From: Parerythrobacter sp.
Lineage (GTDB): Bacteria > Pseudomonadota > Alphaproteobacteria > Sphingomonadales > Sphingomonadaceae
Length of the DNA stretch: 43,607 nucleotides
Direction of reading: 5' to 3'
NCBI GenBank assembly: GCA_028289565.1
Contig: JANQPE010000011.1
Coordinates: forward strand, 1 to 43,607
Shown here: positions 5,631-35,660 of the stretch, piece by piece
Layout: each line of letters begins with the position of its first letter
How positions within the stretch are numbered: the stretch's first letter is position 1
Notes under the pieces: model-generated
Told to the model about the DNA's origin: nothing
The model's input: only the letters and a program-made list of their open reading frames with translations
Database searches by the model: none
Position numbers and translations under genes: made by a program

Positions 5631-5654
5631 AGATATAACGATACCTTTATATGT
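5631..5654. promoter_or_regulatory. Candidate SAH box (SahR operator)
   Basis: Two 12-base halves, AGATATAACGAT and ACCTTTATATGT, form an imperfect palindrome: 9 of 12 positions match when one half is reverse-complemented. It ends 7 bases before the preferred ATG of the SahR-like regulator at 5662. The AT-rich core ATATAA...TTTATAT resembles the SahR-binding motif I recall for alphaproteobacterial methionine genes. The sequence TATAAC inside it could also be a -10 element, so repressor binding would block transcription. Its place between the aldo/keto reductase and sahR-metF-metH suggests autoregulation of the methionine operon. Confidence 0.6.
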
Positions 5655-5661
5655 GTTGCGA

Positions 5662-11259: not shown

Positions 11260-11337
11260 GGGTCCGATCCCGATTGACGCAGGCCGTGCAATCGCGCAGG
11301 ACGATGCCGTTATCCGCAGGAGCGATTCTGCGGGTCG

Positions 11338-11531: not shown

Positions 11532-11573
11532 AGTGCAGGCGGCGCGGTGTCGCCAATGCTGTCGGGGACCGGA

Positions 11574-12695: not shown

Positions 12696-12698
12696 CCC

Positions 12699-13070: not shown

Positions 13071-13071
13071 T

Positions 13072-13153
13072 CGTCATCCCGGCGGAAGCCGGGACCTGGT
13101 GCAGCAATGTCCGACTTGGCGGATAGCGATCCCAGCTTTCGCTGGGATGACGG
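13072..13153. repeat. Dispersed palindromic repeat, copy 1
   Basis: Begins CGTCATCCCGGCG and ends GCTGGGATGACGG, so the ends are inverted repeats. Internal halves also fold (CCCGGCGGAAGCCGGG, and CCCAGCTTTCGCTGGG). The layout of two small hairpins inside one large palindrome recurs at 39433-39514 and 40328-40406. This copy fills the gcvH-gcvPA gap within the operon, so it is transcribed and may affect RNA stability or partial termination. Confidence 0.8.
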
Positions 13154-13162
13154 GAAAACGAA

Positions 13163-16168: not shown

Positions 16169-18193
16169 TTGGCAATCGATCGAGGTGACAATTTCATCGT
16201 TCGCGGCTGGCGCAACGTGCGCGAGGCCGGGCCGCGTCGGCTGGCACTGACTGCCCTGCTGGCGCTGGTTGCTCTCCTGGTTGCCCGCTATGGCTGGGTT
16301 CTGCCGGGAATGGGCGAGGCTGAACGTGAACTTTATGATTCACGTGCTTATGTTGCAGCCGATCGGGATGCCGTGGCGCAGGATGATCGTATTCTAATGG
16401 TCGTCTATAACGATCAGACGCTCATCAATGTTCGCAAGCGCTCGCCACTTGATCGCGGTCTGCTCGCCCGGGCGCTGCGCACTATCGATGCGATGGATGC
16501 GAAAGCGATCGGGATCGATATCTTGTTCGATCAGCCGCAGGATGAAGATGCCGAATTGATCGATACCCTGCGTGCGATGCAGACACCGGTCGCGGTCGGC
16601 TATGCCGAAGAGAAAACCAATGAAGGCAGCATCCGCTATGAACAGGAGCGGTTCCTGCGCGAATTCATGGCGGCATTGGAAGGCAGCAATGCCGAGCCGG
16701 GCAGCGTGCGGCTCGACAACCGCTATGGCGCCACCCGGCTGTGGCCTTCGATAGAGCCGGGCCTGCCGCCCGTCCTCGGGCGCAAGATGTTACGACTGGC
16801 AGGTGAGGAGGCGAAGTCGTTTCCCGGCTATACCGGGGCAATCCGCTACCGCCTGCCGGCCGATGAAAGTCGGCCGGTTTTCACCACTTTGCCGATCGAT
16901 CTGTTCCTCGATCCGGAACTGGCACCGCTGATGGCTGAGCAGGTTGCGGGCCGTTATGTCCTGATCGGCGGTGATATTGTCGATTACGATCGCGTGGCCA
17001 CGCCTATTTCCGAAGCCATGGGTACGCCGCGCCCGCCCGGATTGCGGGTCCATGCGGACATGATCGCGCAAATGCTTGATGGCAAGCGGCTGCCGGCTCC
17101 CTTGCCGGTGACGCTGTGGGGATTGGCGATGCTGATGGTCGTCATGGCCATACTCACCGGCCTGCTCGAATGGGGTAGTTGGCGGATTTATGCTCTGCTT
17201 GTCTTGCAGTTTGTGGTGATGCTCGGTGTGCCTTTCCTGATGGAATTGCGTGGAACCGATACCTACGGCGTGCCTGCCGCAGGCTGGATACTGGGCTGGA
17301 TCATCGCGTTCACGGCCGTGACCTCTGCCGCGCGGGCGGCAGGCGCGGTACAGCGCAATTTCGCCCAGGGTGCGTTGGGCAAATACCTGCCGCGCGAAAT
17401 GGCCAGGGAAATCATCGACAACCCCGATCTTCTATCGCTGCATGGTGAAAAAAAGCGGATTTATGTCCTGTTTTCCGATCTCGAAGGGTTCACCAAAATG
17501 AGCCATGCGATGCAGCCGGAAACGGTTGCCAAGGTTCTTAACCGTTATCTCGAAATGCTCAGCCGGGTCGTTCTCGATCATGGCGGAGTGATCGACAAGT
17601 TCGTTGGTGACGCGGTGGTAGCCTTCTGGGGCGCGCCAATCGCGCGCGAGGACGATGCCGACCGTGCTGCCCGTGCAGGCTATGCGTTATGGCAGGCGGG
17701 TGAGGAATTTCGTGCGGAGATCGCGGCCATGGATCCGGATTTGCCTCCCATAGGCAAAACGCGTGTCGGACTGCATTACGGTGACGCGGTGGTCGGCAAT
17801 TTCGGCGGCGAAACGCGCATCCAATATACCGCGCTGGGTGACAGCATGAACACGGCCGCGCGGCTTGAGGCGGCCAACAAGGCACTCAATTCCAGCATCA
17901 TGGCCAGCCGCGAATTCGTCGAGCGCACCGGGCTGGGATGGTGGCGTGCGATGGGGCGGGTGATCCTGCGCGGTCGTGCGCAGCCGGTCGATATCTTCGA
18001 ACCTGTTCCCGATTTCCCGGAGGAAGAATGCAAGGAATTGCTTCGCGCGTCCATTCTTGCCGAAAGTGATTCCGCGGCCGCCGCTGCGATCGTCGAGGGG
18101 TTGGTCGCTAGCCATCCCGATGACAAGGCGCTGGCCAATCTGCTACACCGTTACCGCAATCTTGGAGAAGGAGGAGCCCATGCCCTCGGTTAA
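16169..18193 (+). CDS. CHASE2-domain class III adenylate/guanylate cyclase
   Basis: A 674-residue membrane protein. One N-terminal helix (about residues 24-45) precedes an extracytoplasmic CHASE2 sensor domain to about residue 305. Three membrane helices follow (WGLAMLMVVMAILTGLL, then IYALLVLQFVVMLGVPF, then GWILGWIIAFTAV). The cytosolic class III cyclase domain starts near residue 425. Catalytic features are intact: metal-binding Asp in LFSDLEGFT and in FVGDAVVAFW, the Lys of IDKFVGD, and Asn/Arg in GDSMNTAARLE. The threonine of YTALGD suggests ATP as substrate, so cAMP is likely. The start is a TTG preceded by GGGGAGGG. It overlaps the next gene by 14 bases. A cNMP-binding reductase and a phosphodiesterase are encoded nearby. 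Confidence 0.88.
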   Translation: MAIDRGDNFIVRGWRNVREAGPRRLALTALLALVALLVARYGWVLPGMGEAERELYDSRAYVAADRDAVAQDDRILMVVYNDQTLINVRKRSPLDRGLLARALRTIDAMDAKAIGIDILFDQPQDEDAELIDTLRAMQTPVAVGYAEEKTNEGSIRYEQERFLREFMAALEGSNAEPGSVRLDNRYGATRLWPSIEPGLPPVLGRKMLRLAGEEAKSFPGYTGAIRYRLPADESRPVFTTLPIDLFLDPELAPLMAEQVAGRYVLIGGDIVDYDRVATPISEAMGTPRPPGLRVHADMIAQMLDGKRLPAPLPVTLWGLAMLMVVMAILTGLLEWGSWRIYALLVLQFVVMLGVPFLMELRGTDTYGVPAAGWILGWIIAFTAVTSAARAAGAVQRNFAQGALGKYLPREMAREIIDNPDLLSLHGEKKRIYVLFSDLEGFTKMSHAMQPETVAKVLNRYLEMLSRVVLDHGGVIDKFVGDAVVAFWGAPIAREDDADRAARAGYALWQAGEEFRAEIAAMDPDLPPIGKTRVGLHYGDAVVGNFGGETRIQYTALGDSMNTAARLEAANKALNSSIMASREFVERTGLGWWRAMGRVILRGRAQPVDIFEPVPDFPEEECKELLRASILAESDSAAAAAIVEGLVASHPDDKALANLLHRYRNLGEGGAHALG

Positions 18194-18908
18194 ACCAATG
18201 CTCGCAGCTGCTCTTGCGCTGGGTATCGTGCTCGCGAGTCCCGGAACAGCCCATGCCGACGTGGTCGTCGCATCGAGCGGACCGTCATCCGGGCAATTCC
18301 CGGTTGGCAAGAAATTATCGCCGGTCGAGCGGATCACGCTCAAGGTCGGGGATTCGGTCACTGTTCTCGGTTCGACGGGAACACGCGTCATTCGCGGGCC
18401 GGGCATCCATCGTGTTGGCGCGCGCGGCCCCAGCAAGCGCTCGACATTCGCCGTGCTGACGCGCCAGCGTTCGGCCCAACGGGTCCGCACCGGGGCAGTA
18501 CGGGGCGATATCCCGGGTGCGACGCTGACCAGCCCGAACATGTGGTATGTCGATGTTTCCAAGTCCGGTACGATGTGTGTCGCCAACCTCGATAGTGTGC
18601 GGCTGTGGCGCCCGGGGACCGAAGGCAATTCGACCTATCTCATCGCCAAGGCGAGTTCACCCGACCATATTCATGTCAACTTTGAGGACGGGGCGATGGT
18701 GGCCGAATGGGACGGCATGCGCATGCCGCTTGCCGAGGGTGCGACCTACAAGATTACCGGTCCGGGAGGCGGGGCGGCCAGCGAAGTGACCTTCGCGATG
18801 CTCGACGAACCCGGTGACGATCCGGAGGCGCTGGCCGAGGACTTGATCGCGAAGGGATGCACGGTACAGCTCGAACTGCTTGCCTCGACGATGATGACGG
18901 CCGGCTAG
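18180..18908 (+). CDS. Exported FecR-like hypothetical protein
   Basis: A 242-residue protein with a clear signal peptide (residues 1-26, ending near PGTAHADV). A beta-rich segment with a FecR-like pattern follows (LKVGDSVTVLGSTGTRVI, then GPGIHRVG). There are two cysteines, in TMCVANL and KGCTVQ. It starts at an ATG inside the end of the cyclase gene, so the two are translated together. CHASE2 cyclases are often neighboured by exported FecR-domain proteins, so a periplasmic partner or ligand for the CHASE2 sensor is a reasonable guess. Function is not established. Confidence 0.7.
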   Translation: MPSVKPMLAAALALGIVLASPGTAHADVVVASSGPSSGQFPVGKKLSPVERITLKVGDSVTVLGSTGTRVIRGPGIHRVGARGPSKRSTFAVLTRQRSAQRVRTGAVRGDIPGATLTSPNMWYVDVSKSGTMCVANLDSVRLWRPGTEGNSTYLIAKASSPDHIHVNFEDGAMVAEWDGMRMPLAEGATYKITGPGGGAASEVTFAMLDEPGDDPEALAEDLIAKGCTVQLELLASTMMTAG

Positions 18909-18932
18909 GCTGGCGTGCGCAAGTCGTAAATT

Positions 18933-18952
18933 GCCGGTATTAGCCGGTATTA
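18933..18952. promoter_or_regulatory. Tandem 10-base direct repeat before the cytochrome operon
   Basis: GCCGGTATTA occurs twice in a row in the 125-base gap between the FecR-like gene and the pentaheme cytochrome gene. A period of ten bases puts both copies on one helix face, as for a regulator bound to direct repeats. I could not identify a convincing -35/-10 pair in this gap. The purpose of the repeat is unknown. Confidence 0.35.
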
Positions 18953-19033
18953 GAGGGTTGGCAGCAGCAGATTTTATAGGCACAGTTCGAACCACAAGAA
19001 TAAGATGGGGTCGCCCGCTGACGGAGGGTGACA

Positions 19034-20404
19034 GTGAAAGTGTTCGGGGGGAAAGCAGTCGGGCTGCTGGGCATGCCGGTTTTTGCGGTAGCCGCCTTGC
19101 TGTTCGGTGCTGTCGGCCAACTCAACGCCCAGGGCGGTCCACGATACGAAGGCGTTGCCAGTTGCGCCGGTTCGACCTGCCATGGCCGGGCCGAGGGCAA
19201 CGGCGAAGTCGTTCGGCAGGATGAAATTGCAACCTGGCAGGAGCCGTCTTCAGCCAGCGGTTCGCACAGCCGCGCCTATGCCGTGCTTGCCAGTCCACGC
19301 GGGCGGCAGATCGCTGCTAGCTTGGGCCTTGGTCCGGCGACATCCGCCCCGGCCTGTCTGGGTTGTCATTCGACCTATGCCCCCGCGGCCCGGCGCGGGC
19401 CGCGGTTCCAGATTTCCGATGGCGTCGGGTGCGAAAGCTGCCATGGCGCATCATCGAGCTGGCTGGCGGTGCACTATGCCAAGCCGGCAACGCATGCTTC
19501 GAACGTCAGGGCGGGATTGACCCCGCTGACCGATCCGCAGGTCCGGGCCGGCATATGCCTCGATTGCCATTTCGGCAGCACCAAGACCGGGCAGTTCGTC
19601 ACCCATTCGATGATGGCGGCGGGCCACCCACGCATTTCTTTCGAACTCGACCTGTTTTCCGCTCTCCAGCAGCATCACGATGCCAATGACGATTATGTCG
19701 CGCGCAAGGGGAGGCTCGACAGCGTTCGGTTATGGGCTGTCGGCCAGGCGGAAGCGGTACGTCGTTCCACCGACCTTTATGCCCGGCCGCAATTCGGAAT
19801 CGAGGGTGTGTTTCCCGAATATTACTTCTACGATTGCCACAGTTGCCACCGGACGATCACCGACGGACCTCGGCGCAAGCTGACTTTCGAAACCAATCCC
19901 GGGCGACCGATCCCGTTCGGCCTCGCTCCGTATAACGATGAAAACATCATCATGCTGTCGGCTGTATCGCAGGCGCTGGCACCGGGTCGGGCCGCCGCTT
20001 TCGACAAGGCAAGCAAGGGTTTTCATCGGGCGATGGGGCAGGGTCGCAAAGAGGCTGTGACAGCCGCACAGCGCCTGCGCGGCGAAGCACGGGCATTGTC
20101 CGATGCGCTCGCCGGACGATCCTATTCGGGGAACGATGCCTTTACCGTAATCGCCAGCATTTCCGATCGCAGCACGTCGCCACGGTTCACCGATTACACA
20201 GGTTCGGCACAGGCGGTCATGGCGGTCGATACGCTGCTTAACGCGCTGGTTCGCGAGGGGCGCGTCACTGCTGGCGCGGCCGCAGGCATACGGGCCAATA
20301 TCAACCGTGCCTATGCGGCGGTGCGTACTCCGGAAAGCTACGATCCGGCACGGTTCCGTTCGGCTCTGGGGCAGGCAACCCGGGCGATAGGGGCCTTGCG
20401 TTGA
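19034..20404 (+). CDS. Periplasmic pentaheme cytochrome c (c554-like)
   Basis: A 456-residue exported protein with an N-terminal signal peptide (about 30 residues). Five heme-attachment motifs are visible: an unusual CX4CH (CAGSTCH), then CLGCH, CESCH, CLDCH and CHSCH. The spacing resembles the cytochrome c554-like multiheme group. The last third lacks heme motifs and looks helical. The GTG at 19034 is chosen because GGAGGG lies five bases upstream; a GTG at 19028 is in frame. The stop overlaps the next start. It is the first of four coupled genes and probably carries electrons in the periplasm. Confidence 0.85.
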   Translation: MKVFGGKAVGLLGMPVFAVAALLFGAVGQLNAQGGPRYEGVASCAGSTCHGRAEGNGEVVRQDEIATWQEPSSASGSHSRAYAVLASPRGRQIAASLGLGPATSAPACLGCHSTYAPAARRGPRFQISDGVGCESCHGASSSWLAVHYAKPATHASNVRAGLTPLTDPQVRAGICLDCHFGSTKTGQFVTHSMMAAGHPRISFELDLFSALQQHHDANDDYVARKGRLDSVRLWAVGQAEAVRRSTDLYARPQFGIEGVFPEYYFYDCHSCHRTITDGPRRKLTFETNPGRPIPFGLAPYNDENIIMLSAVSQALAPGRAAAFDKASKGFHRAMGQGRKEAVTAAQRLRGEARALSDALAGRSYSGNDAFTVIASISDRSTSPRFTDYTGSAQAVMAVDTLLNALVREGRVTAGAAAGIRANINRAYAAVRTPESYDPARFRSALGQATRAIGALR

Positions 20405-22407
20405 TAGTGCGGCGTGCCGGCCTTTCCCTGACGATCGCGGCGGCCATGACGATGGCCGGTTGCGGTGGGGGAGGCAATAATAGCCAACCGCCCCCGCTCG
20501 GAGGGGGCAGCCCCGCCCCAACGCCGGCTCCGACACCGGGAGCGCTGTTTGCGCAACCGGCACAGGAATCGCTGTCGGTCGCGGAGGTCCAGCAGGTTGT
20601 CGCGCAAGCCGTGGGGGAGGCGCAGGCGCGCGGACAGCCTTCGATTATCGCGGTCACGGACCGGGTCGGCAATGTCCTTGCCGTGTTCCAGATGACCGGT
20701 GCTCCGGGAACGACGCAACTCAGCACTCGCCAGATCGGGGGCAATGCGGCCCCGGGTGATGAGATCGGGCTGCAGGGCGCGATGGTGCCGTCGGCCGCGG
20801 CGGCCATCGCCAAGGCGATCACCGGGGCCTATCTGTCGAGTGGCGGCAATGCGTTTTCCACCCGCACGGCAAGCCAGATCGTGCAGGAACATTTCCCTCC
20901 GGCGACTTCGACTGCCGGGTTGGAAAGCGGCCCGCTATTCGGCGTGCAATTCAGCCAGCTTCCCTGCTCTGACCTGAATACGCGCTTCGGAGCAATGGGA
21001 CCGGGTGCCTTTATCGGGCCCAAGCGTTCACCGCTCGGCCTTGCCGCTGATCCGGGCGGCTTTCCGCTATACAAAAACGGCGTGGTTGTCGGCGGTATCG
21101 GGGTGATGGGCGATGGCGATTACGGCTTCGATCCCAACATCCTCGATCGCGATAACGATCCGGAAGAGGCAATTGCGCTGGCCGGAACTCAGGGCTTTAC
21201 TCCGCCGACCGCCATTCTCGCCGACCGGATTCCGGTCGATGGCACGACGTTGCGTTTCAGCGACATGACCGCGAATGATATCGGAGCCTTGCAGACAAGT
21301 TTCGGGGCGATCAACGGTCCGGCGGGCAATCTTGTCGCGGTTGCCGGGTATACCGACGGTGTCGTCCGGGCCGGTACGGCCTATGGCAGTGAGGCATCGG
21401 GCATTCGCGCCAGCCGGGCCGGCGAGTTTGCCAATGTCGACGCCTATGTGCTGACCGACGGTGCCGGCAACAATCGCTACCCGATCCGTGGAGGCACCGA
21501 TGTCGCTTCGGTGGGGCAGCCGCTGACGGTGGCGGAAAGCAGGGCGATTCTGGAAGAGGCGTTCATTATCCTCTCCCGCGCGCGGGCGCAGATACGTCGT
21601 CCGCTTGACAGCCGCATGCAGGCGACCATCAGCCTGGTCGATACCCACGGGGAGATTCTGGGTATTGTCCGTTCGCCCGACGGCCCGATCTTTGGCACCG
21701 ATGTTTCGCTGCAAAAGGCACGCACCGCGGCGTTTTTTTCCAATCCGGTCGCCGCCCAGCAATTGTTGGGTACCCCGGTGGTTCCGGGAGTAACCGATAT
21801 CCCCGCCTATGTCCCACGTGTGCGGGCATTCCTGAACGATCAGGCAGCACTGACCGGCAATTTCGCTTTCGCCGATAGGTCAGGCGGCAATCTGTCGAGA
21901 CCCTATTTCCCGGACGGCGAAGTCGGCCGCCCGCCCGGGCCGTTGTCAGTCGAAACATCAAATGATTTCAGTCCCTTTGCCGTCGGATTGCAGACCGATC
22001 TTGTCATCCCCAATATCGGTGCGCACCTCAATTTCATCACTAGCAACGGCGCGAATGCGGACACACCGCAGCAATGCACGCAGGTGCCGAACGGGCCGGG
22101 CGGGCTGAAGCGGATCGCCAATGGCATCCAGATATTCCCCGGCTCGGTACCGATCTATCGCGGTGACCAACTGGTCGGCGGGATCGGCGTATCGGGCGAC
22201 GGGATCGACCAGGATGATATGGTCGCATTCCTCGGCACGCATAATGGCGGACAGCGTGCCGGAGGCATCGGCAATGCGCCCATGAACATTCGCGCCGACC
22301 GGATCGTGATCGATGTGAACGGGAGCTCGGTGCGCCTGCGCTATGTCAACTGCCCCTTCGCCCCGTTTCTCGACACCGCAGCGCAAAATGTGTGCGAGGG
22401 GCTGTAG
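20401..22407 (+). CDS. Lipoprotein with two HbpS/GlcG-like domains
   Basis: A 668-residue lipoprotein: signal peptide with lipobox TMAGC, then a Gly/Pro-rich linker (PPPLGGGSPAPTPAPTPG). Two halves resemble the HbpS/GlcG (heme-binding protein, old DUF336) family. The first half has IIAVTDRVGNVLAVFQMTG and GGIGVMGDGDYG. The second has ISLVDTHGEILGIVRSPDG, QKARTAAFF and GGIGVSGDGIDQDD. In HbpS this fold binds heme or related ligands. Long insertions enlarge each half. TTG 20401 overlaps the upstream stop; GTG 20407 is an equally possible start. Its place between cytochrome and outer-membrane barrel genes suggests heme or electron-acceptor handling at the envelope. Confidence 0.75.
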   Translation: MIVRRAGLSLTIAAAMTMAGCGGGGNNSQPPPLGGGSPAPTPAPTPGALFAQPAQESLSVAEVQQVVAQAVGEAQARGQPSIIAVTDRVGNVLAVFQMTGAPGTTQLSTRQIGGNAAPGDEIGLQGAMVPSAAAAIAKAITGAYLSSGGNAFSTRTASQIVQEHFPPATSTAGLESGPLFGVQFSQLPCSDLNTRFGAMGPGAFIGPKRSPLGLAADPGGFPLYKNGVVVGGIGVMGDGDYGFDPNILDRDNDPEEAIALAGTQGFTPPTAILADRIPVDGTTLRFSDMTANDIGALQTSFGAINGPAGNLVAVAGYTDGVVRAGTAYGSEASGIRASRAGEFANVDAYVLTDGAGNNRYPIRGGTDVASVGQPLTVAESRAILEEAFIILSRARAQIRRPLDSRMQATISLVDTHGEILGIVRSPDGPIFGTDVSLQKARTAAFFSNPVAAQQLLGTPVVPGVTDIPAYVPRVRAFLNDQAALTGNFAFADRSGGNLSRPYFPDGEVGRPPGPLSVETSNDFSPFAVGLQTDLVIPNIGAHLNFITSNGANADTPQQCTQVPNGPGGLKRIANGIQIFPGSVPIYRGDQLVGGIGVSGDGIDQDDMVAFLGTHNGGQRAGGIGNAPMNIRADRIVIDVNGSSVRLRYVNCPFAPFLDTAAQNVCEGL

Positions 22408-24465
22408 ATGGCGACACCGCTGATGCTACCCCTGATCTTGCCGCTTGCGGCTTCCACACCGCCGCCGCAGGAGGCGGGGGCGGAATTCGAGCGAGCTTTC
22501 GAAGAATTCCGTGTGACGCGAGAGGAGGGCGGAGAGCAGGTGGCCGTCGCGCCCGATACGACATTCGCGGAAGCCTTCGCCCGATACGGGATATCGCGCA
22601 GGCAGGTTTCGACAAGCTACCTCGCTCTTGCAACGCACCGGGCCGACACGCCTGGCGAACAGGCGCCGCAAGATGCCGTGCCGGAAGAAGCACGGGAACT
22701 TCCCCCGGCCGAGGCTGATCCGGACGAACCGCCTCCGGTTGATAATGAAAGCATCGAGGGCCGCCGCCGTCCCGGCTATACTGCAGAACTGCCCGACCGG
22801 ATCGAGCAGACCAATGAGGGCGCCGTGCGTGCCCCGCGGCCCGAGGCATTCCCGACTGACCAAGTGCCGATCCCCGACCGCTGGCGATTGATCGAAAGCT
22901 TGGGGTTGGTGAAGGAACGCTGGTGGGATCCGTACAACCAGAACACTTATAAGGGCGATCGACCGATCAATCCTGACAAGGTTCCGTGGTTGCCGATAAA
23001 AGGCAAGGACTGGTTCTTCGTCGTCAATGCGATCAGCGACACGATTTTTGAACCGCGCACCTTTCCTACCCCGGTTGGCGTGCAAACGACCGCCGATCCC
23101 GGCCGGATCGATGTGTTCGGCAATACGGCCAGTATCGTCGCTGCGCAGACATTCATCGTCGGCGCGGCGCTGCTCAAGGGCAATACCGCCTACAAACCAC
23201 CCGATGTCGAATACCGGCTGACCTTTGCCTTCAATGTCAACCATGTCGATGTACCCGAACGGCGCGTACTATTTGTCGAGCCGACCAGGCCGACCCATCG
23301 CACCGATCATTTCCTGGGCGTCCAGGAAGCTTTCTTCGACTACCACTTCCGCAATGTGTCGGACCGTTATGACTTTGATTCCATGCGGATCGGCGTTCAG
23401 CCTTTCCAAGCCGATTTCCGAGGTTTCCTGTTCAACGACAACCAACTCGGCATCCGTTTTTTCGGGACGCGCGACAACAACCGATTCCAGTATAATATCG
23501 GTGCGTTCTGGCGGTTGGAAAAGGATACCAACAGCGGGCTAAATGCGGTCTTGCAGACGCCGCGCGACGATTTCCTGTTCATTGCCAATGTTTACCGGCA
23601 GGATTTCCTGATTCCGGCGCTGACCAGCCAGATAACCGTCGCCTACAATAGAAATCGCGAAGCCGACGATATCCAGATCGACGATAACGGGTTTCCGGTT
23701 CGCCCTGCCTTGCTCGGCGATTTGCGCGGGCGCGATTATGATGTGTTTTATCTTGGCTATAATGCAGACGGCCGGATCGGACGCTTCAACATTACCGCCA
23801 GTGCCTATGCCGCATTGGGCGAAGACCGGAACAATTTCTTCACCAGTCAGCCGGCCGACATTCGTGCCTTTTTCGGCGCGGCGGAGGTCAGCTACGACCG
23901 CGACTGGATGCGTTTTCGCCTGTCGGGTGCCTATGCCAGTGGCGACGGCGACCCCTATGACGATACCGAAACCGGTTTCGACGCCGTGTTCGAGAACCCG
24001 GTTTTCGCAGGCGCCGACACATCCTATTGGATCCGCCAGACGATCCCCTTCGCCGGCGGCGGTCGCGCCATCGCCGTCAACGGTCGTAACGGAATCCTCA
24101 ATTCGCTGCGCAGTTCGAAAGAGCAAGGACAGTCGAATTTCAACAATCCGGGCTTGATCCTCGCCGGTGCCGGTGCGGATTTCGACCTGACGCCCGAATT
24201 CCGGCTGTCGGGTAATGTCAACCATCTGTGGTTCGAAAACACCGCGACATTGCAGGCGCTACGCAACGAAGGTTCGATCCCCAAGGATATAGGGTGGGAC
24301 CTCAGCGCTGCCGCGATATGGCGGCCCAAGGCGACGCAGAACATTGTCCTGCGTCTGTCGGGCGCGGCACTGCTTGCCGGTGACGGATTCCGCGATCTGT
24401 TCGACAATCTCGGGCAGGACCGAACCTATTATTCGATCCTCGCCAATGTGACGCTGGCTTACTGA
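22408..24465 (+). CDS. Outer-membrane beta-barrel protein of a multiheme cytochrome operon
   Basis: A 685-residue protein with a short signal peptide. An acidic, proline-rich segment (about residues 80-150) is followed by a C-terminal region of alternating amphipathic strands, ending in a tyrosine (VTLAY), typical of outer-membrane beta-barrels. I see no cysteine in it. The strand region has many short turns rich in Asp, Asn and Gly. It begins directly after the stop of the lipoprotein gene and its stop overlaps the ATG of the giant cytochrome. By analogy with porin-cytochrome conduits it could house or dock a cytochrome across the outer membrane. It is not recognisably MtrB. Confidence 0.65.
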   Translation: MATPLMLPLILPLAASTPPPQEAGAEFERAFEEFRVTREEGGEQVAVAPDTTFAEAFARYGISRRQVSTSYLALATHRADTPGEQAPQDAVPEEARELPPAEADPDEPPPVDNESIEGRRRPGYTAELPDRIEQTNEGAVRAPRPEAFPTDQVPIPDRWRLIESLGLVKERWWDPYNQNTYKGDRPINPDKVPWLPIKGKDWFFVVNAISDTIFEPRTFPTPVGVQTTADPGRIDVFGNTASIVAAQTFIVGAALLKGNTAYKPPDVEYRLTFAFNVNHVDVPERRVLFVEPTRPTHRTDHFLGVQEAFFDYHFRNVSDRYDFDSMRIGVQPFQADFRGFLFNDNQLGIRFFGTRDNNRFQYNIGAFWRLEKDTNSGLNAVLQTPRDDFLFIANVYRQDFLIPALTSQITVAYNRNREADDIQIDDNGFPVRPALLGDLRGRDYDVFYLGYNADGRIGRFNITASAYAALGEDRNNFFTSQPADIRAFFGAAEVSYDRDWMRFRLSGAYASGDGDPYDDTETGFDAVFENPVFAGADTSYWIRQTIPFAGGGRAIAVNGRNGILNSLRSSKEQGQSNFNNPGLILAGAGADFDLTPEFRLSGNVNHLWFENTATLQALRNEGSIPKDIGWDLSAAAIWRPKATQNIVLRLSGAALLAGDGFRDLFDNLGQDRTYYSILANVTLAY

Positions 24466-28625: not shown

Positions 28626-28631
28626 GGCGCG

Positions 28632-29483
28632 CTACTCTTCGCGCTCGGCGAACATTTCGCGCATCATGGGCTGCAGGTGCGGGCCGTAATAGGCGAGCAC
28701 ATCCCATTCATTGGTCTTCTCGTAATGAGTGACGAGCGATCGCCCGTCCCAGCGATGCAATGCGTAGGTTGCCGGTTCCGTGGTGATCAGCACGCGCTGG
28801 TCGGGCGTGTCGGAATCGACTTTGCGCAGGTCGAGCGAGACGAGCGGAGCGACCGACGGCGTTACCGACAGCGGAACTCCGTTGAAGGCCGTTGTGATCG
28901 GGCGATGGAGATGCCCGCAATGGATGGCGACGATCTGGTCATGCCCTTTGATCGCAGCGGCGAAATTGGCGATCCAGCCTTCGTTCGGTGACGGGTCCAT
29001 CCAGTCGATGCCGGATACTACCGGCGGATGATGCATGAAGATCAGCGTCGGGGTATCGGGATGTCCGTCGAGTTGCGCGCGCAACCATTCGCGGCGTTTT
29101 TCGCAAAACGCGCCACCGTGGCGGCCGGGCTCGAAGGAATCCAGCATCAGGATGCGGAGCCCGTCTTGTTCGATCGCATAATGCACAAAACCGCCTTCGC
29201 TGGGTATATCGGGGAAGGCACGCAGCAATTCCTCGCGCGAATCGTGGTTGCCGACCATCGCATAGACAGGGAAAGGACAAGCTTCGAGCAATTCGGCGGT
29301 TTTTTCGAAACTCTCACGGTCGCCGCGGTCTGTCAGGTCACCGGTGAGTACCAGCATGTCGATCGGATTCGGGCTCTTCAGCAGGCGATCGAGCGTTGTC
29401 CGGAAACGAATCCGATTGAGTTCCTCCGGCCTGGCATCCGGATCGAAGCCGATATGGATATCGGTCATCTGCGCGATCAGCAT
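28632..29483 (-). CDS. Class III cyclic-nucleotide phosphodiesterase (CpdA-like metallophosphoesterase)
   Basis: A 283-residue cytosolic enzyme with the full two-metal calcineurin-like signature: D-X-H in MTDIHIGF, GDLTDRGD, GNHD, the histidine pair in FMHHPP, and GHLHRP. Length and motif spacing match the CpdA/Rv0805 group, which hydrolyses 3',5'-cAMP, often with broad specificity. It is the last gene of the minus-strand operon led by the cNMP-binding reductase, starting 23 bases after the FHA-cytochrome stop with GGAAGGGGA as ribosome binding site. The context makes cAMP removal the likely role; other phosphodiester substrates remain possible. Confidence 0.82.
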   Translation of the reverse strand: MLIAQMTDIHIGFDPDARPEELNRIRFRTTLDRLLKSPNPIDMLVLTGDLTDRGDRESFEKTAELLEACPFPVYAMVGNHDSREELLRAFPDIPSEGGFVHYAIEQDGLRILMLDSFEPGRHGGAFCEKRREWLRAQLDGHPDTPTLIFMHHPPVVSGIDWMDPSPNEGWIANFAAAIKGHDQIVAIHCGHLHRPITTAFNGVPLSVTPSVAPLVSLDLRKVDSDTPDQRVLITTEPATYALHRWDGRSLVTHYEKTNEWDVLAYYGPHLQPMMREMFAEREE

Positions 29484-29506
29484 GGTAGATCCCCTTCCAT
29501 GCGGTT

Positions 29507-31273
29507 CTAGCCGGACTTCCGGCTAATTCTTGCAACCCGGTCCGACACCACATCAGGGTGGTTGCCGGGTATTCTCCCCTCTTGAGGGTGATAGGAATGG
29601 CACATTGCGCAGCTCGAAGGAACCTCGGCCTGCTTGGCATCCTCACCCAGATGGCAATCACGGCAAATCGCTATACCGGGCAGCAGAAGATCGGAAGAAC
29701 TCTTGGAACTTTCTGCCTGGTGGCAACTGGTGCAATCCTCCTGTTCGTGCTCTTCGTGATCGAAACGCCCGTTGAGCAAGTAAGTATCGCGCAAATGGAC
29801 CGGGATGACATCGGGCTTCCCGTCGTTGGTGGTCGGTATGTGGCACTCGCCGCAAACGCCGCGCGCGGACAGTGCCTGGCTGATCCCGATGTAATTACGG
29901 GCCGGCCTGCCGAAATCCTGGAAATAGCGCCCGCCACGGGCGTACTCGCCCGGCCGGTGACGGTTTCCGGTGGTCACAGGGCGCCGCGGAGAGCGATCCA
30001 TTGCCATCAGGTCCGCGCGCATGGCATCCACATCGCCATGGCGCAGCGTGCGGAAAGTCGATCCCACACGATCATAGACGAGACTGTGGCAGGCCTCGCA
30101 ATCCTCCTCCATATCCACGGGCAAGAAACCCGCCTTGTCAGCGGTCGGTGTATGGCAGTCGGCACAGGCGAGTGCGCTGCCATACCCTTTCTTGGACCCC
30201 AGATTACCGGCCATGCGTGCTACGCCGCCATCGGTGTCAAGGTGCAGATCGTGTGGAAAGCGCAGACCGCTGGCCTCCTTCGGTTTCGCCGACAGGGATA
30301 ACCGCTCGGTACTGTCGCGCCCCAGTTCGGTAAACACGATCGCTTTGAATTGCGGATGCGCTGTGCCGAAATCAGCGGCATTCGCGATCTCCGTATCGGT
30401 CAGCCGTCCATCCATGCCGTTATGGCAATCGGCGCAGAATTGCTGCGCGGCAGGTTCCATCCGACCGGCGCCTTCATGTTCAGTATGGCACGTGGTGCAG
30501 GAACCGGGACCTTCCTTACCGAAAGTCTGTGCTATTGCCCACAGCATCCGGTCGCTCCGGGAGAGGGGGCCGCGCCCGGTAAGCTGGCGTGGGATGGGGG
30601 CATGATCGCCGATTTCTTCGTGGCAGGTCAGACAGGTTTCGTCGCGCACCGACTGGAACGGTTTGACGTGACAGGCCTCGCAATTGTCCTCGAGCCCATG
30701 GTGAGCAAGGCTGAGGGCACCGGTACTCCAACTTGCATCCATGAGGGTGTGGCCCTTGCTGTCGTAATCGGGCTTGGCTGGCGGTTCGCGATTTAGATTG
30801 GTGTAGATCGGGATGGCGAGAAAGGCGATCAGGATCGCGGCCAGCCCGATCCAGGCCATGACCCGCTTGCCTGGCAGTGCGCTCGACAGGGCAAAACCCT
30901 TGAGCACGTCGATCGCGCCTTCCTTCTCCTCGACTTGCCGGACGGTGAGAGTGACGGGGTCGCTGCCTTCCTGAGAAGCAGCAATGCGATAGCTTCCGAA
31001 AGATAATTCGGTGCCTTCATGCGGATTGAACGTGCCTTCGTCGACGGTTCGACCATCCATGGAGAAGCCGAGCGTTCCGACTGCGGTGATATGGAGTTTC
31101 CCGCCTTCCGCGGGTTTGATCCTGGCATGTCGCTGTTCCACGGCGAGATCGGAAAGGTGGAGATCGTTTTCGGTCGCGCGCCCGATGGTGATCGTATCCT
31201 GGGCCACTTCGCGATCACGCACGATTTCGCGCCCGTCTGCGGTGAGGTCGATAGTCCGGATCAGGAATGCCAT
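29507..31273 (-). CDS. FHA domain - membrane helix - decaheme cytochrome c
   Basis: A 588-residue fusion. Residues about 5-110 are an FHA domain with the phosphothreonine-binding layout: Gly-Arg at 31-32 (ITIGRATEND), Ser at 41 and Arg-His at 48-49 (SDLAVEQRHARI). One membrane helix lies at about 137-160. Beyond it are ten CXXCH motifs from residue 198 to near the end: CEACH, CLTCH, CTTCH, CADCH twice, CEACH, CGECH, CTSCH, CRDCH and CAMCH. The FHA domain should be cytosolic and the hemes periplasmic. An in-frame start at 31315 exists, but the ATG at 31273 has GAGGGGAG upstream and follows the cytochrome b stop by 13 bases. Confidence 0.9.
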   Translation of the reverse strand: MAFLIRTIDLTADGREIVRDREVAQDTITIGRATENDLHLSDLAVEQRHARIKPAEGGKLHITAVGTLGFSMDGRTVDEGTFNPHEGTELSFGSYRIAASQEGSDPVTLTVRQVEEKEGAIDVLKGFALSSALPGKRVMAWIGLAAILIAFLAIPIYTNLNREPPAKPDYDSKGHTLMDASWSTGALSLAHHGLEDNCEACHVKPFQSVRDETCLTCHEEIGDHAPIPRQLTGRGPLSRSDRMLWAIAQTFGKEGPGSCTTCHTEHEGAGRMEPAAQQFCADCHNGMDGRLTDTEIANAADFGTAHPQFKAIVFTELGRDSTERLSLSAKPKEASGLRFPHDLHLDTDGGVARMAGNLGSKKGYGSALACADCHTPTADKAGFLPVDMEEDCEACHSLVYDRVGSTFRTLRHGDVDAMRADLMAMDRSPRRPVTTGNRHRPGEYARGGRYFQDFGRPARNYIGISQALSARGVCGECHIPTTNDGKPDVIPVHLRDTYLLNGRFDHEEHEQEDCTSCHQAESSKSSSDLLLPGIAICRDCHLGEDAKQAEVPSSCAMCHSYHPQEGRIPGNHPDVVSDRVARISRKSG

Positions 31274-31286
31274 GTGCCCGCTCCCC

Positions 31287-32150
31287 TCACCAGTAATAAA
31301 AGACGCTGACCACATGCGCGATCAGTGCTGCGATGAGGGCGATCGTCGCCGGGATATGGATATACAGCCACACTTCAAGCAGTGCCCTGAGGCGCATCTG
31401 GCGGCGAATCTGGTCAAGTTGCGCCTTACGGCGCCCAAGCAGAGCGTTGACCCGCTCATGCTCTTCACTGCCGTCACTGGCGAAGGCGCTTTGCGCCCGC
31501 CGTGTCTTGCAACCGGGATAGCGCCCGGTCAGGCGAGCGGTCATTCCTGCACGAAACGCGTCCTGTTCCAGTGCGGCAATGATCAGATCGGCATCGTCGC
31601 GATCAAGCGGCTGGGCGGCGTTGTCGAGCTGACGGTCGATCGCTTCGAGCGCTTCGACCATCTGCCCGCGGGTCATCTCGCGGCGATTGGTGCTAAGCCG
31701 TTCGGGCAATGTGGCATAGACCGAGATGCCGTAAATGCCCGATACGATGACCAGCATCATCAGCGCCCAGGCAAGCGTATGGACGTTCCAGCCGAGTTGG
31801 AAGCCGGTATGCAAGGTTCCTATCACGACAAGCGCAAGACCAAGATAGACATGCGCGCTGGTCCAGGCCTTCAGGCTCCAGCGCCCCTCGGTCATCTTGC
31901 GTTTGCGGATACCGAGCAATGACAACCACACAATCAGTAACAGGCCGATAGTACCGAGCGTATAGCCGAACCAGCTACCGCCATTGTGGCGCGGTTCCAC
32001 ATCGATCAGGAAATAGGCCAGCAGGACAATGACCGAGATACCCAGCGCGATCTTGAGCCAGCGCATGCGGCGGTGAGCGAGGAAACTCTCGTGGTCGGCA
32101 TCGCGCCGCTGTTCATCAAGGGCGAAATCGCGTTTGGAGGTGGACGCCAT
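31287..32150 (-). CDS. Five-helix b-type cytochrome, probable transmembrane electron carrier
   Basis: A 287-residue integral membrane protein with about five helices (starting near residues 31, 61, 98, 126 and 258). Two pairs of histidines, H100/H114 and H265/H279, each spaced H-X13-H, fall in helices 3 and 5, as in the diheme b ferric-reductase-type proteins. H124 follows helix 3. A soluble, charged loop of about 100 residues separates helices 4 and 5. It overlaps the upstream reductase stop by one base (TAATG) and precedes the FHA-cytochrome gene. It probably passes electrons from the cytosolic Fe-S module to periplasmic hemes. It could also exchange electrons with quinone. Confidence 0.78.
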   Translation of the reverse strand: MASTSKRDFALDEQRRDADHESFLAHRRMRWLKIALGISVIVLLAYFLIDVEPRHNGGSWFGYTLGTIGLLLIVWLSLLGIRKRKMTEGRWSLKAWTSAHVYLGLALVVIGTLHTGFQLGWNVHTLAWALMMLVIVSGIYGISVYATLPERLSTNRREMTRGQMVEALEAIDRQLDNAAQPLDRDDADLIIAALEQDAFRAGMTARLTGRYPGCKTRRAQSAFASDGSEEHERVNALLGRRKAQLDQIRRQMRLRALLEVWLYIHIPATIALIAALIAHVVSVFYYW

Positions 32151-34603
32151 TATTCCACCTCATCCGCAAGCTTGGTATAGGAAAGGAACTTCTCGGGAGA
32201 TACGCGGATCGCCGCCCCGGTGGGACAGGCGCGGACGCAGGCCGGACCGCCTTCTATTCCCGAGCACATGTCGCACTTGATTGCGACCTTGGGACGTTCC
32301 TGCCCGTCTTTCTCGATGGCTTTCCTGCGCCAGGAATAGTTGGCCTCGCCCGGTCCTGGACCTCGTCCGAACAGCAACCAGCTAATCAGGGAGGGTTTGG
32401 GTGGCGGTTTGGCGTCCATCCGGATCACGCCATAGGGGCAGTTGCGCTGGCAGTTGCCGCAGCCGATGCAAGAATCGTCGATAAAGACTTCACCATCGGG
32501 CCCTCGCTTGATGGCGTTGGGCGGGCAGTCGGCCATGCAATGCGGATGTTCGCAATGGCGGCACGATGTCGGCACATGCAGGTGAGCGTATGTCCGGCCG
32601 GCCTCGCGATCGAGCCGGGAGAGACCGTCATGGCTGTCGGCGCAGGCTTTTTCGCAATTGTCGCAACCGACGCATAATTTCTCGTCGATCAGCAAGACGT
32701 CGGTGGCTTCGCCGACACCGTTGTCGACCAGAAATTGCGCGGTCTCGGAATACATGTCGACAGCACTGCCGAAGCTTTCCTTGCGGCTTTCGACGAAGGA
32801 ATTCGTCTCGCGCCGCCCGGACATCTCGGCCAGGACCTTCTCGCGCAGATGCGGCTTGCGGTCGAGCAGGGAGACAAATGCCTCCCCGGGGAAACGGATA
32901 ACTTCGGATTTGATCGCCGCCTTGACCGTGGCAGTGCGTTTCGATCCGTCGATTACCGCCATCTCCCCGACATAGGAACCTGCCGGCAGATAGGAGAGGA
33001 AGACCGGCTTGCCGCCGATATCCTTCTCGATGATCATCGAGCCGCGGCGGACTATGAAGACATCCTTATCGTCTTCGCCTTCGGTTATGACAGTGTCTCC
33101 GGCGCGAACTTCCTCGACTTCCGAGGATTCCACAAGCTCCGCGACGTCTGCCGGTTCCAACCCGGAGCCGAACATTTGCAGCAATTGCCGTTCGACCGAA
33201 ATCCGGTTGACCGCTCGGTTGGCGCTGGGTGCCGTGGCGAGCAGTTTCAACGCGGCTGTTCGCGCCAACTCCAGTACCACCGTATCTTCGGCCGCGCGGA
33301 TGGTGGATCCGCGCCGACGACCGGAAACCAGGCCGACTTCGCCGAAAATAGAGCCTCGTTCGATCGGTACGGTGACAGAGGGATTCCCCGGGTCGATTTC
33401 CACGCTGACCGACCCTTCCGCAATGGCGAACATGGACGATCCCGGTGCATTCCTCTCGAAGATTATATCTCCGGCACGGAAGGCACTCACTTCGGAATCG
33501 AGCATCAGCTCGCGCATCTGGAGCGGGGAAAGGTCGTGCAGGATCACGACATTCGTGTTGAAGGTTTCCAGCCATTCGTCGACCGACCGGCTACCGGGCA
33601 GAGCATCGAATTTCTCTGCCAGGATCGGTTCGTCCGCGGGTTTGAGTTCGGTATTCCCGTTGAGGAATTCGATCACATCGTAGCCCTGATTCATGCAGTG
33701 CTTGATCAGCGGATAGCCTGCCAATGCACCAATGACGTGGATACCCGGTTTGGTCGTCTCGAAGCTGGGCGAAAGCTTGGGGAAGGCACCCCGGTCTTCG
33801 CTGGTGAATTCGATCCCGCATCCTTCCACGAAACCGCGTGGTGGCTGCGATCCGGTACGGGCTATGATCCGGTTGCACGGGATCGTCTCTTGCCCATCGC
33901 GCGTGTCGAGCACTAGCTCTCCTTCGCGTATTTCGGCGGGGTTGGTTTCGCGACGTACGAAAATCCGCCCATCAGCTTCGGCCTCTTCGAGCAGCTTGAC
34001 GTTGGCCTTCTTGGCCCGGGCGAATTCGGCGCGTCGATTAAGGATGCTCACCACGTTGCGTTGCGCCGGGTCAGCAGCAAGGCCGAGCGCATTCTCGATT
34101 CCCGCATCACCCGAACCGATGACCGTGATATGCTCGTCGAAATACTCGCCCGGATCGTCGAGCTGATACTGGATGTGCGGCAAGTCGGCGCCCGGAATGC
34201 GCAGCAGGTTGGGATTGCCCTGCGTTCCGATGGCCATCACGACCGCTTCGGCTTCGATAGTCTCGCCGCTTTTCAGCAGAATCGTGAAATTGCCCGTTTC
34301 GCCGGTAATTTCGGACACTTCGGCGTTCAATTTTACATTGACCTTGTGTTCCTCGATCTGGCGATCCCAGGTATCGAGGATGAATTCGCGCTTGCCGGCA
34401 TCGAAATCGAGATCGGAGCGCAGCACCAGATTGCTGGGCGTCGCCATCACGTGCTTGCCCTTCTGGTACTTGAAAATCGTGTCGGAGAGGTGGTCGGTCT
34501 TCTCGATCAGGATATGCGGCATATCGAGCGCGGCAGCATGGCCGGCGGCGCTGAGGCCGGCTGGTCCCGATCCGACAATAGCTACGCGATAGCGATCCGG
34601 CAT
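32150..34603 (-). CDS. cNMP-regulated FAD/NAD(P) reductase fused to four-cluster ferredoxin
   Basis: An 817-residue cytosolic fusion. Residues 1-340 form a TrxR-like two-dinucleotide-fold flavoprotein (FAD motif GSGPAG at 11-16, NAD(P) motif GSGDAG at 163-168) without a CXXC disulfide. Two cyclic-nucleotide-binding domains follow at about 365-465 and 485-590. Each has the phosphate-binding Glu and Arg nine residues apart: E422/R431 and E547/R556. The C-terminal module has sixteen cysteines in four [4Fe-4S] motifs (644-654, 681-693, 712-722, 777-793), like DmsB/HybA. An upstream in-frame ATG at 34636 is less likely than 34603, which has GGGGGAGG upstream. It is the first gene of the operon with cytochrome b, FHA-cytochrome and phosphodiesterase. 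Confidence 0.92.
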   Translation of the reverse strand: MPDRYRVAIVGSGPAGLSAAGHAAALDMPHILIEKTDHLSDTIFKYQKGKHVMATPSNLVLRSDLDFDAGKREFILDTWDRQIEEHKVNVKLNAEVSEITGETGNFTILLKSGETIEAEAVVMAIGTQGNPNLLRIPGADLPHIQYQLDDPGEYFDEHITVIGSGDAGIENALGLAADPAQRNVVSILNRRAEFARAKKANVKLLEEAEADGRIFVRRETNPAEIREGELVLDTRDGQETIPCNRIIARTGSQPPRGFVEGCGIEFTSEDRGAFPKLSPSFETTKPGIHVIGALAGYPLIKHCMNQGYDVIEFLNGNTELKPADEPILAEKFDALPGSRSVDEWLETFNTNVVILHDLSPLQMRELMLDSEVSAFRAGDIIFERNAPGSSMFAIAEGSVSVEIDPGNPSVTVPIERGSIFGEVGLVSGRRRGSTIRAAEDTVVLELARTAALKLLATAPSANRAVNRISVERQLLQMFGSGLEPADVAELVESSEVEEVRAGDTVITEGEDDKDVFIVRRGSMIIEKDIGGKPVFLSYLPAGSYVGEMAVIDGSKRTATVKAAIKSEVIRFPGEAFVSLLDRKPHLREKVLAEMSGRRETNSFVESRKESFGSAVDMYSETAQFLVDNGVGEATDVLLIDEKLCVGCDNCEKACADSHDGLSRLDREAGRTYAHLHVPTSCRHCEHPHCMADCPPNAIKRGPDGEVFIDDSCIGCGNCQRNCPYGVIRMDAKPPPKPSLISWLLFGRGPGPGEANYSWRRKAIEKDGQERPKVAIKCDMCSGIEGGPACVRACPTGAAIRVSPEKFLSYTKLADEVE

Positions 34604-34660
34604 CAACCTCCCCCACGCAAGCGATCCCGCGACCATATGTTTTGTTCTGGTCGCATCATA

Positions 34661-34694
34661 GGCAATTGGACCGTTTTCGCCAGTGCCAATTGCC
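34661..34694. promoter_or_regulatory. Perfect inverted repeat in the divergent promoter region
   Basis: GGCAATTGG at 34661-34669 is inverted at 34686-34694 (CCAATTGCC); centres are 25 bases apart, and each arm contains the palindrome CAATTG. It lies in the 121-base gap between the reductase operon and the CcmI-like gene, so it could be an operator for both directions. A weaker GACCA...TGGTC pair lies at 34631-34652. No CRP-like TGTGA-N6-TCACA site was seen here. Confidence 0.5.
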
Positions 34695-34724
34695 GCTTGC
34701 CATGACGGATGCTAGCGCGCGCAT

Positions 34725-35660
34725 ATGGGAGACGATAGCAAGGATCGGACATCGGGGAGCGGCCCGTCCAGAATCACCTTGGGCGTATTGTTGCTTGCTG
34801 CACTGTTTGCGGCCGGAGCCATCGGCTACAGCATGTTCGGCAAAAATGCGGAAGACGTTTCGCAACCCGCCGCATCCACCGACAGCACCCTGTTGACACT
34901 CGAGGAACTGAGAGAACGCGCCGAAGCAGACCCGCTTGATGCCGGAGCCTGGCAGGAACTCGGCTTTGCCTATTTCGCGGATGGGCAGTTTGCGGAGGCG
35001 GCGCGGGCTTACCGTCAGGCGGCGGAAGGGGATCCTGATAATGCCGTTCTATGGTCTTCGCTGGGCGAAGCCCGTGTGATGGCGAGTGAGCGTGACCCGA
35101 TGCCGGCCAATGCCGTGGCGGCTTTTCGTCAGGCACTCGAGCTGGATTCGTCCGATCCGAGAGCGCGTTATTTTCTCGCCGTCAAAAAGGATCTCGATAG
35201 CAATCCGGAAGGGGCGATTGCCGATTGGCTCGCCCTGCTGGAAGACACGCCCCCCGGCGCCCCATGGGAAGACGATCTGCGTCGCACGATCGAGCAGGTC
35301 GGCAAGATCAACTCCATCGACACGTCCGGCCGCATCGCCGCAGTGACGGCGGACAGGCCCGAACCGCCCGAACTGACTGCGGGCAATGCCATTCCCGGGC
35401 CTTCCAGGGAACAGATCGCTGCGGCGAGCACGATCGCACCGGGCGAACAACGGCAAATGGCGGAAGGAATGGTCGAACGACTGGAGGGGCGGCTCGAAAG
35501 CGACCCGTCCAATGTCGATGGCTGGGTAATGCTGATGCGCAGCCGCGTTACTCTGGGCCAGCCCGAACGGGCGAAGCAAGCCCTGACTGATGCCATTGCG
35601 GCGAATCCACGGTTCGAGGCGCGGCTACGCCAGGAAGCGCAGCTTCTCGGGATACGCTAG
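34725..35660 (+). CDS. CcmI/CycH-like TPR protein, probable cytochrome c maturation factor
   Basis: A 311-residue protein with one N-terminal membrane helix (about residues 18-36) and tetratricopeptide repeats outside it (GAWQELGFAYFADGQFAEAA, then NAVLWSSLGEARVM, and near the end DGWVMLMRSRVTLGQPERA). The layout matches CcmI/CycH, which presents apocytochrome c to the heme-lyase complex. The usual additional N-terminal helix of full CcmI is absent. It is divergent from the reductase operon, next to genes encoding 25 heme-attachment motifs, which supports a maturation role. No other ccm genes are in the window. Confidence 0.72.
   Translation: MGDDSKDRTSGSGPSRITLGVLLLAALFAAGAIGYSMFGKNAEDVSQPAASTDSTLLTLEELRERAEADPLDAGAWQELGFAYFADGQFAEAARAYRQAAEGDPDNAVLWSSLGEARVMASERDPMPANAVAAFRQALELDSSDPRARYFLAVKKDLDSNPEGAIADWLALLEDTPPGAPWEDDLRRTIEQVGKINSIDTSGRIAAVTADRPEPPELTAGNAIPGPSREQIAAASTIAPGEQRQMAEGMVERLEGRLESDPSNVDGWVMLMRSRVTLGQPERAKQALTDAIAANPRFEARLRQEAQLLGIR

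Follow-up and report, generated by a model that had tools for sequence, protein, structure and literature searches.

The gene cluster considered here, which may encode a transmembrane electron-transfer system under cyclic-nucleotide control, lies on contig JANQPE010000011.1 of Parerythrobacter sp. (assembly GCA_028289565.1), a genome of 2.2 Mb in 148 contigs that is 85% complete; the window, that is, the whole stretch of DNA analyzed, spans 43,607 nucleotides. On the minus strand, one operon encodes a reductase (RED), an inner-membrane protein (IMP), a decaheme cytochrome with an FHA domain (FHA10) and a phosphoesterase. It converges on a plus-strand operon for a cytochrome c554-like protein, an HbpS-like lipoprotein, an outer-membrane barrel and a large decaheme cytochrome with LVIVD repeats (LVIVD10), and the gene for a CHASE2 receptor cyclase adjoins (Table 1). 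A preliminary description of this DNA had listed these parts, counted 25 heme-binding motifs in three cytochromes and noted overlapping, tightly packed genes, and it was borne out on all three counts. Every part was found in its place; the 25 motifs are made up of 24 CXXCH and one CX4CH, the latter kept in 15 of 15 homologues of the c554-like cytochrome; and the packing recurs in relatives, with median gaps of 0 bp (RED-IMP), -28 bp (IMP-FHA10) and 33 bp (FHA10-phosphoesterase) in the named Sphingomonadales loci.

Table 1. Features of the cluster, with positions in the window and the basis of each assignment
Feature	Position	Strand	Basis
CHASE2 receptor class III nucleotide cyclase	16169..18193	+	Pfam CHASE2 6.5e-24 and Guanylate_cyc 9.1e-14
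orf18, secreted protein, no function assigned	18180..18908	+	habitual companion of the CHASE2 cyclase in relatives
Cytochrome c554-like, 4 CXXCH and 1 CX4CH	19028..20404	+	Pfam Cytochrome_C554, motif count
Lipoprotein with HbpS-like domains	20401..22407	+	Pfam PF03928 2.8e-21; lipobox in sequence
Outer-membrane barrel, AlgE/OprD type	22408..24465	+	structure model
LVIVD10, large LVIVD-repeat cytochrome c, 10 CXXCH	24465..28625	+	Pfam, motif count, homologue conservation
Class III metallophosphoesterase, SpdA/CpdA-like	28632..29483	-	Pfam Metallophos, NCBIfam
FHA10, N-terminal FHA, one transmembrane helix (149-175), decaheme cytochrome c	29507..31315	-	Pfam, hydropathy
IMP, 5-helix inner-membrane protein, predicted diheme b	31287..32150	-	motif counts, RED fusion in relatives
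RED, FAD/NAD(P) reductase with Pyr_redox, 2 cNMP_binding (6.5e-33) and Fer4	32150..34636	-	Pfam, NCBIfam, PDB homologues
RED cyclic nucleotide-binding (cNMP) domain 1, phosphate-binding cassette (GSIFGEVGLVSGRRRGSTIRA)	33293..33355	-	Glu433, Arg442
RED cNMP domain 2, phosphate-binding cassette (GSYVGEMAVIDGSKRTATVKA)	32918..32980	-	Glu558, Arg567
CcmI/CycH-like TPR protein	34725..35660	+	TPR_CcmH_CycH 3.6e-16

A search of genome contigs with the reductase matched at least 593 stretches, at least 584 of which were confirmed as relatives, and the best 80 loci were read (loci and genomes are given by our L and G numbers). The nearest RED relatives among the matches listed came from Erythrobacter, Pontixanthobacter, Altererythrobacter and Novosphingobium. 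Within the best 80 loci, RED-IMP-FHA10 was retained wherever the contig was long enough, and the phosphoesterase gene came next after FHA10 in all 72 loci that reached far enough. An LVIVD gene lay within 10 kb of RED in 56 loci and converged on the phosphoesterase gene in all except L010 and L079. Among 100 genomes of the same family, RED was present in 32 and the barrel in the identical 32; at least six genomes (G469, G552, G547, G532, G214 and G486) have both on one contig with more than 90 kb between them, so their co-occurrence is not due to linkage alone. The CHASE2 cyclase (E <= 1e-40) was found in 29 of the 32 genomes with RED versus 3 of the 68 without it (Fisher tests that ignore the kinship of the genomes, 2e-18 for RED and cyclase and 7e-27 for RED and barrel). 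Full-length RED homologues (43 to 54% identity) extend beyond the family to further alphaproteobacterial families and to other classes of the phylum, and IMP and decaheme genes stood beside RED in most of the distant loci read.

The cluster is also carried on plasmids: out of 72,556 plasmids, a single set of 12 from Sphingobium has all three of RED, barrel and cyclase, although these may be a single lineage and weigh about as much as one event. The 959-kb plasmid pMSHV of Sphingobium herbicidovorans (L238/L239, NZ_CP020539, about 786,000-818,500), which is typed as conjugative, has the order CHAT-cyclase-orf18-ShlB-adhesin-c554-HbpS-barrel-LVIVD-(two small genes)-phosphoesterase-FHA10-IMP-RED-TPR with no housekeeping genes inside; its adhesin-like two-partner-secretion protein (2093 residues, without heme motifs) is encoded directly upstream of the c554 gene. 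Chance clustering was rejected from synteny and co-occurrence, and contamination or a one-genome oddity was rejected from the spread of the cluster over many genera. There is good support for these genes working together, and the joint conservation on which the preliminary description had staked its proposal was found: the genes are kept as a unit.

RED, whose likely start codon is Met12 (base 34603), where the homologues begin, opens with a YpdA/thioredoxin-reductase-like FAD/NAD(P) domain (residues 16-318) that matches the YpdA model TIGR04018 of NCBIfam at 1.8e-36 and has the PDB homologue 7a7b. Its FAD and NAD(P) motifs are kept in nearly all of 107 homologues from several classes, down to about 43% identity. 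No conserved CxxC was found in the flavin domain of these 107 homologues, and RED was for that reason rejected as a thioredoxin or bacillithiol reductase. The C-terminal ferredoxin domain has 16 Cys for four [4Fe-4S] clusters, all 16 invariant in the homologues, and two cNMP domains (about 378-470 and 496-605) stand in the chain between flavin and Fe-S domains. Proteins of the CRP/PKA family bind cyclic AMP (cAMP) with a phosphate-binding cassette whose Glu and Arg are in contact with the ribose and phosphate of the ligand. The ligand-binding residues claimed for the RED pockets are kept in essentially all homologues (Glu433, Arg442 and Arg567 in 107/107, Glu558 in 106/107), and from this conservation RED likely binds a cyclic nucleotide.

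A Pfam search of the source genome returned three cNMP domains, two of them in RED. The third, in a Crp/Fnr protein, has no cassette, and neither has one further HTH_Crp protein, so that the only intact-cassette cNMP domains found were the two of RED. Because the other cNMP and Crp proteins found have no cassette, while three class III cyclase-domain genes are encoded, RED is the best candidate, judged from these sequences, for the receptor of the cAMP made in this genome. The broader claim of RED as the sole cAMP receptor of the lineage fits the incomplete source genome and was rejected as a general rule: Crp-like proteins of G532, G547, G551, G552 and other genomes carry a cassette that is intact or nearly so. 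Some RED genes stand in other company. In genome G001, a stand-alone second RED with both cassettes intact lies near a gene for a FIST-sensor class III cyclase (L107:3971-7288 and 8954-11458), with neither IMP nor FHA10 beside it. In two related genomes (L110:11347-14558 and L111:3-2744), Peptidase_C14 caspase-domain proteins with bacterial SH3 domains are encoded beside RED, in L110 together with a trypsin-like protease.

IMP contains two WX3HX13H motifs (W96-H114 and W261-H279) and SGXXG (SG at 137), and both His motifs are present in 102 of 103 homologues. It has no Pfam FRD match, and no solved structure is related in sequence to IMP or LVIVD10. In L108 and L109, from two genomes of another class, RED and IMP form a single open reading frame of 1120 to 1125 residues, and this fusion argues for direct electron transfer between the two proteins. 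In FHA10, all 10 CXXCH motifs are kept in 99 to 100% of 100 homologues. A single transmembrane helix separates its FHA domain from the heme sites; the FHA domain is therefore likely cytoplasmic and the hemes periplasmic. A role of the FHA domain as a phosphothreonine reader is weakened by loss of the phosphothreonine-contacting Ser, in whose place most homologues have Glu, Asp, Thr or Asn. The transmembrane path from RED through IMP to a decaheme cytochrome that had been proposed at the outset gains backing from the RED-IMP fusion.

Toward the outer membrane, the barrel operon holds 15 of the 25 heme sites, and the heme motifs of LVIVD10 are conserved in 67 homologues. The barrel was modeled with 18 strands at about residues 200 to 685 (overall pLDDT 55.7, mostly 70 to 80 in the barrel part). 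The model matched AlgE/OprD-type channels, with AlgE itself at Z 26.6 and a root-mean-square deviation of 3.0 over 359 residues; the outer-membrane barrel first described is thus present and now refined by the model to this type. MtrB is absent among the structure matches listed, which is not evidence of a difference from MtrB. From this model, an outer-membrane step in the electron path is likely. The lipoprotein at 20401-22407, within this multiheme cytochrome operon, belongs to the HbpS-like family of heme-degrading and heme-sensing proteins.

The cyclase domain was aligned to the catalytic domains of CyaB and CyaC (SDLEGF, IDKFVGDA and YTALGDSMNTAARLE). It has the residue set of class III adenylate cyclases, whose catalytic roles are well established for the family: two metal-binding Asp, the adenine-selecting Lys with Thr/Asp, and the transition-state Asn/Arg. 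The Lys of IDKF and the Thr of YTALGD are as in adenylate-forming class IIIb enzymes, and the CHASE2 protein is predicted to be an adenylate cyclase. In most relatives read, the order is CHAT-CHASE2 cyclase-orf18-ShlB-giant two-partner-secretion adhesin. The closest relatives of the stretch (L154 and L156-L158) have no adhesin part, and there cyclase-orf18 adjoins c554. The secreted orf18 (18180-18908) accompanies the cyclase in nearly all relatives read, with or without the adhesin module. The whole module from CHAT to adhesin also occurs without reductase or barrel in L141 (G542) and L142 (G477). The cyclase does travel with the cluster, although what it accompanies may be a larger surface module and not just RED. 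It had been described as the signal maker of the system; that it tracks RED across genomes agrees with this, whereas its standing as a dedicated partner is weakened by its usual place in the CHAT-to-adhesin module, which the two RED-negative genomes also have.

The phosphoesterase, whose metal ligands are invariant in homologues, gave NCBIfam matches below cut-off to SpdA (7e-42; 143.9 bits, cut-off 400) and to CpdA (1.5e-23; 83.7 bits, cut-off 225). SpdA acts on 2',3'-cAMP and not on 3',5'-cAMP (PMC4222275). Of the cyclic-nucleotide phosphodiesterase named in the preliminary description, the class III metallophosphoesterase stands, and its part as remover of cAMP is weakened by SpdA ranking before CpdA. 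In nearly all Sphingomonadales loci, the TPR gene and RED point away from each other. L103 (4685-9014), where genes for CcmF and a CcmI-like TPR protein adjoin RED, suggests that this divergent gene is what remains of a gene cluster for cytochrome c maturation. Farther upstream in the window, positions 5539-16095 hold an ordinary one-carbon block (ArsR-methyltransferase fusion, MTHFR, two-gene methionine synthase and gcvT-H-P1-P2).

Taken as one system, these genes may encode a PCC4-like transmembrane electron-transfer chain with allosteric control of its cytoplasmic entry enzyme by a cyclic nucleotide, for which 3',5'-cAMP is the most likely candidate; to this reading we give a little less than an even chance. 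In the scheme that we infer, in which the phosphoesterase and the FHA domain would also have roles, NAD(P)H would reduce the FAD of RED, and the four [4Fe-4S] clusters of RED would relay electrons to IMP, whose two b hemes would carry them across the inner membrane to the anchored FHA10. From there they would reach, in the periplasm, the cytochromes located at the outer-membrane barrel (c554-like and LVIVD10) and then an acceptor that may be periplasmic or outside. cAMP from class III cyclases, the nearby CHASE2 protein and others, would bind the tandem cNMP domains of RED and so open or close the flavin-to-cluster step. Because the cNMP pair sits between flavin and clusters, gating of electron flow by ligand binding would be the natural reading of this arrangement.

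Several observations weigh against this scheme. The residue after the cassette Arg of cNMP domain 2 is Thr or Ser in most homologues, which is compatible with cGMP too. Some relatives encode other Crp-like proteins with an intact cassette, and in a source genome that is 85% complete a further cAMP receptor may have been missed. The phosphoesterase profile being closest to the 2',3'-specific SpdA, it would be premature to label the protein a cAMP phosphodiesterase. The usual site of the cyclase is the CHAT/two-partner-secretion module, often with housekeeping genes before c554, and outside Sphingomonadales the RED pockets are kept but cyclase and phosphoesterase are not routinely adjacent. An 18-strand AlgE-like barrel model does not establish cytochrome sheathing. 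Fold searches with the AF2 model of IMP (pLDDT 73; Foldseek and VIA-align) gave no decisive match, Dcytb and cytochrome b6 appearing at Z of about 9 among unrelated helical matches of equal Z.

The chain might instead take electrons up. A donor outside the cell or in the periplasm, such as Fe(II) or Mn(II), would feed them through the cytochromes to IMP and the quinone pool, and RED would be a side branch for NAD(P)H production or redox sensing. We regard this as unlikely, though worth serious attention. The named carriers are Sphingomonadales, which are mostly heterotrophs; RED is the constant, at times fused, partner of IMP; and reducing NAD(P)+ with electrons from Fe(II) or Mn(II) is energetically uphill. 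Because of the last two points, the direction from NAD(P)H to the outside is favored. Uptake draws its case from the IMP motifs and the gene set, which resemble those of PCC4, a conduit for which Fe(II) oxidation with a link to quinones has been proposed (PMC5566968). A second alternative, which we consider improbable, is that RED-IMP-FHA10 feeds periplasmic reductions (e.g., a heme- or thiol-related reductase) while the barrel and the HbpS-like lipoprotein handle a substrate or heme. The AlgE/OprD-like fold is that of a substrate or exopolysaccharide channel, an HbpS-like lipoprotein is indeed in the operon, and surface exposure of the LVIVD decaheme cytochrome is only putative; however, the barrel operon has 15 of the 25 heme sites and the barrel occurs in exactly the genomes that have RED, which suggests a path ending at the outer membrane. 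Very improbable is a third, in which the local cyclase does not gate the cNMP domains, which have a constitutive or other ligand (cGMP or 2',3'-cNMP) or an assembly role, the cyclase belonging to the adjoining CHAT/two-partner-secretion module. The occurrence of that module in two RED-negative genomes, the housekeeping genes that divide it from the cytochromes in several RED-positive genomes and the SpdA-like phosphoesterase speak for it, but the cyclase follows RED across genomes, persists where the adhesin module is lost (the stretch itself, L143, L144, L154 and L156-L158) and co-travels on plasmids with no housekeeping genes between.

Returning to a gated entry enzyme, we propose, tentatively and at rather less than an even chance, that a second messenger directly gates transmembrane electron flow through RED, a post-translational control that would occur in several classes of proteobacteria and travel on Sphingobium plasmids along with a CHASE2 adenylate cyclase. 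Porin-cytochrome conduits (PCCs) are usually viewed as constitutive wires or as transcriptionally controlled. RED, with its entry cofactors and two intact pockets, would make fast, signal-dependent control of transmembrane electron flow testable on one purified protein. It also provides a function-linked handle on an uncharacterized conduit in a common family of aerobes, about one-third of whose sampled genomes have it. Cultured carriers (e.g., Erythrobacter dokdonensis, Novosphingobium mathurense and Sphingobium herbicidovorans) permit genetics.

Among known systems, the closest described is PCC4 (He et al. 2017, PMC5566968), which comprises a porin, cytochromes of 4, 5 and 10 hemes and IMP, and to which subgroup II adds a PF13247 Fe-S gene upstream of IMP. 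The IMP motif set (WX3HX13H twice, SGXXG) was given there for PCC3 and PCC4 inner-membrane proteins and read as two b hemes, and both conduits were proposed to run in the oxidative direction. The IMP of the stretch, with five transmembrane helices, two WX3HX13H motifs and SGXXG, conforms to the PCC4 definition (SGXXG in the fourth helix, WX3HX13H in the third and fifth). As in subgroup II, a PF13247 gene, RED (42.1 bits, cut-off 26.2), lies directly upstream of it; a decaheme cytochrome and a c554-type tetraheme cytochrome are shared, and the outer-membrane barrel is a putative counterpart of the porin. The stretch differs in its heme set of 4(+1), 10 and 10, and in having an AlgE-like barrel, an LVIVD decaheme cytochrome and an HbpS-like lipoprotein in place of pentaheme cytochrome and porin. 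Two loci that share the RED-IMP-FHA10 core (L119 and L120) encode a c554 protein with 4 CXXCH, a pentaheme cytochrome, a decaheme cytochrome and a porin-like signal-peptide protein ending in Phe. The barrel of the stretch has no detectable similarity to the porin-like protein of L119, the protein used for comparison in place of the original PCC4 porins. Because the IMP and Fe-S features agree but the heme set and barrel differ, the cluster is PCC4-like with another outer-membrane module and not PCC4 itself. In conduits of the MtrCAB/PioAB type, an MtrB/PioB-like barrel sheaths a decaheme cytochrome; the barrel of the stretch is modeled as an 18-strand AlgE/OprD type, for which such sheathing would be putative.

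The other comparisons concern single parts. He et al. liken IMP to NOX/ferric reductase (FRD) and cytochrome b type transmembrane reductases (PMC5566968), which likewise carry electrons across the membrane from an NAD(P)H-FAD donor through a diheme membrane protein with HX13H pairs; here, in contrast, Fe-S clusters and cNMP domains are placed between flavin and heme, and IMP gives no FRD match in Pfam. YpdA-type flavin disulfide reductases and thioredoxin reductases have an FAD/NAD(P) domain homologous to that of RED, which lacks their disulfide CxxC and is fused to cNMP and ferredoxin domains. In S. meliloti, CHASE2 receptor cyclases, the class III phosphoesterase SpdA at a cyclase locus and the cNMP receptor Clr (PMC4222275, PMC13001267) parallel the CHASE2 cyclase, class III phosphoesterase and cNMP receptor found here, but Clr is a transcription factor, whereas the candidate receptor RED is a redox enzyme. 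A 2026 metagenome study (PMC13264449) describes, in the section drawn on here, a ghost-rock PCC "group 1" with a 4- to 5-kb decaheme gene, a porin of about 20 strands and, in 7 of 11 cases, a ferredoxin-NADP reductase gene nearby. LVIVD10, barrel and RED fit that description, by description and not by sequence, and that same section describes no cyclic-nucleotide part. "Cyclic nucleotide" is absent from the main text of PMC5566968 (its supplement aside), and a literature search, supplements likewise aside, returned no paper joining cyclic nucleotide binding with porin-cytochrome or multiheme systems. The initial statement that no described system with this set of parts was known therefore holds, within the texts searched, for the link between a conduit of this kind and cyclic nucleotides, and does not hold for the electron skeleton, which resembles PCC4 (PMC5566968) and, as far as that section goes, PCC group 1 (PMC13264449). 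The electron skeleton is already known in kind, and the cyclic-nucleotide connection is the part that may be new.

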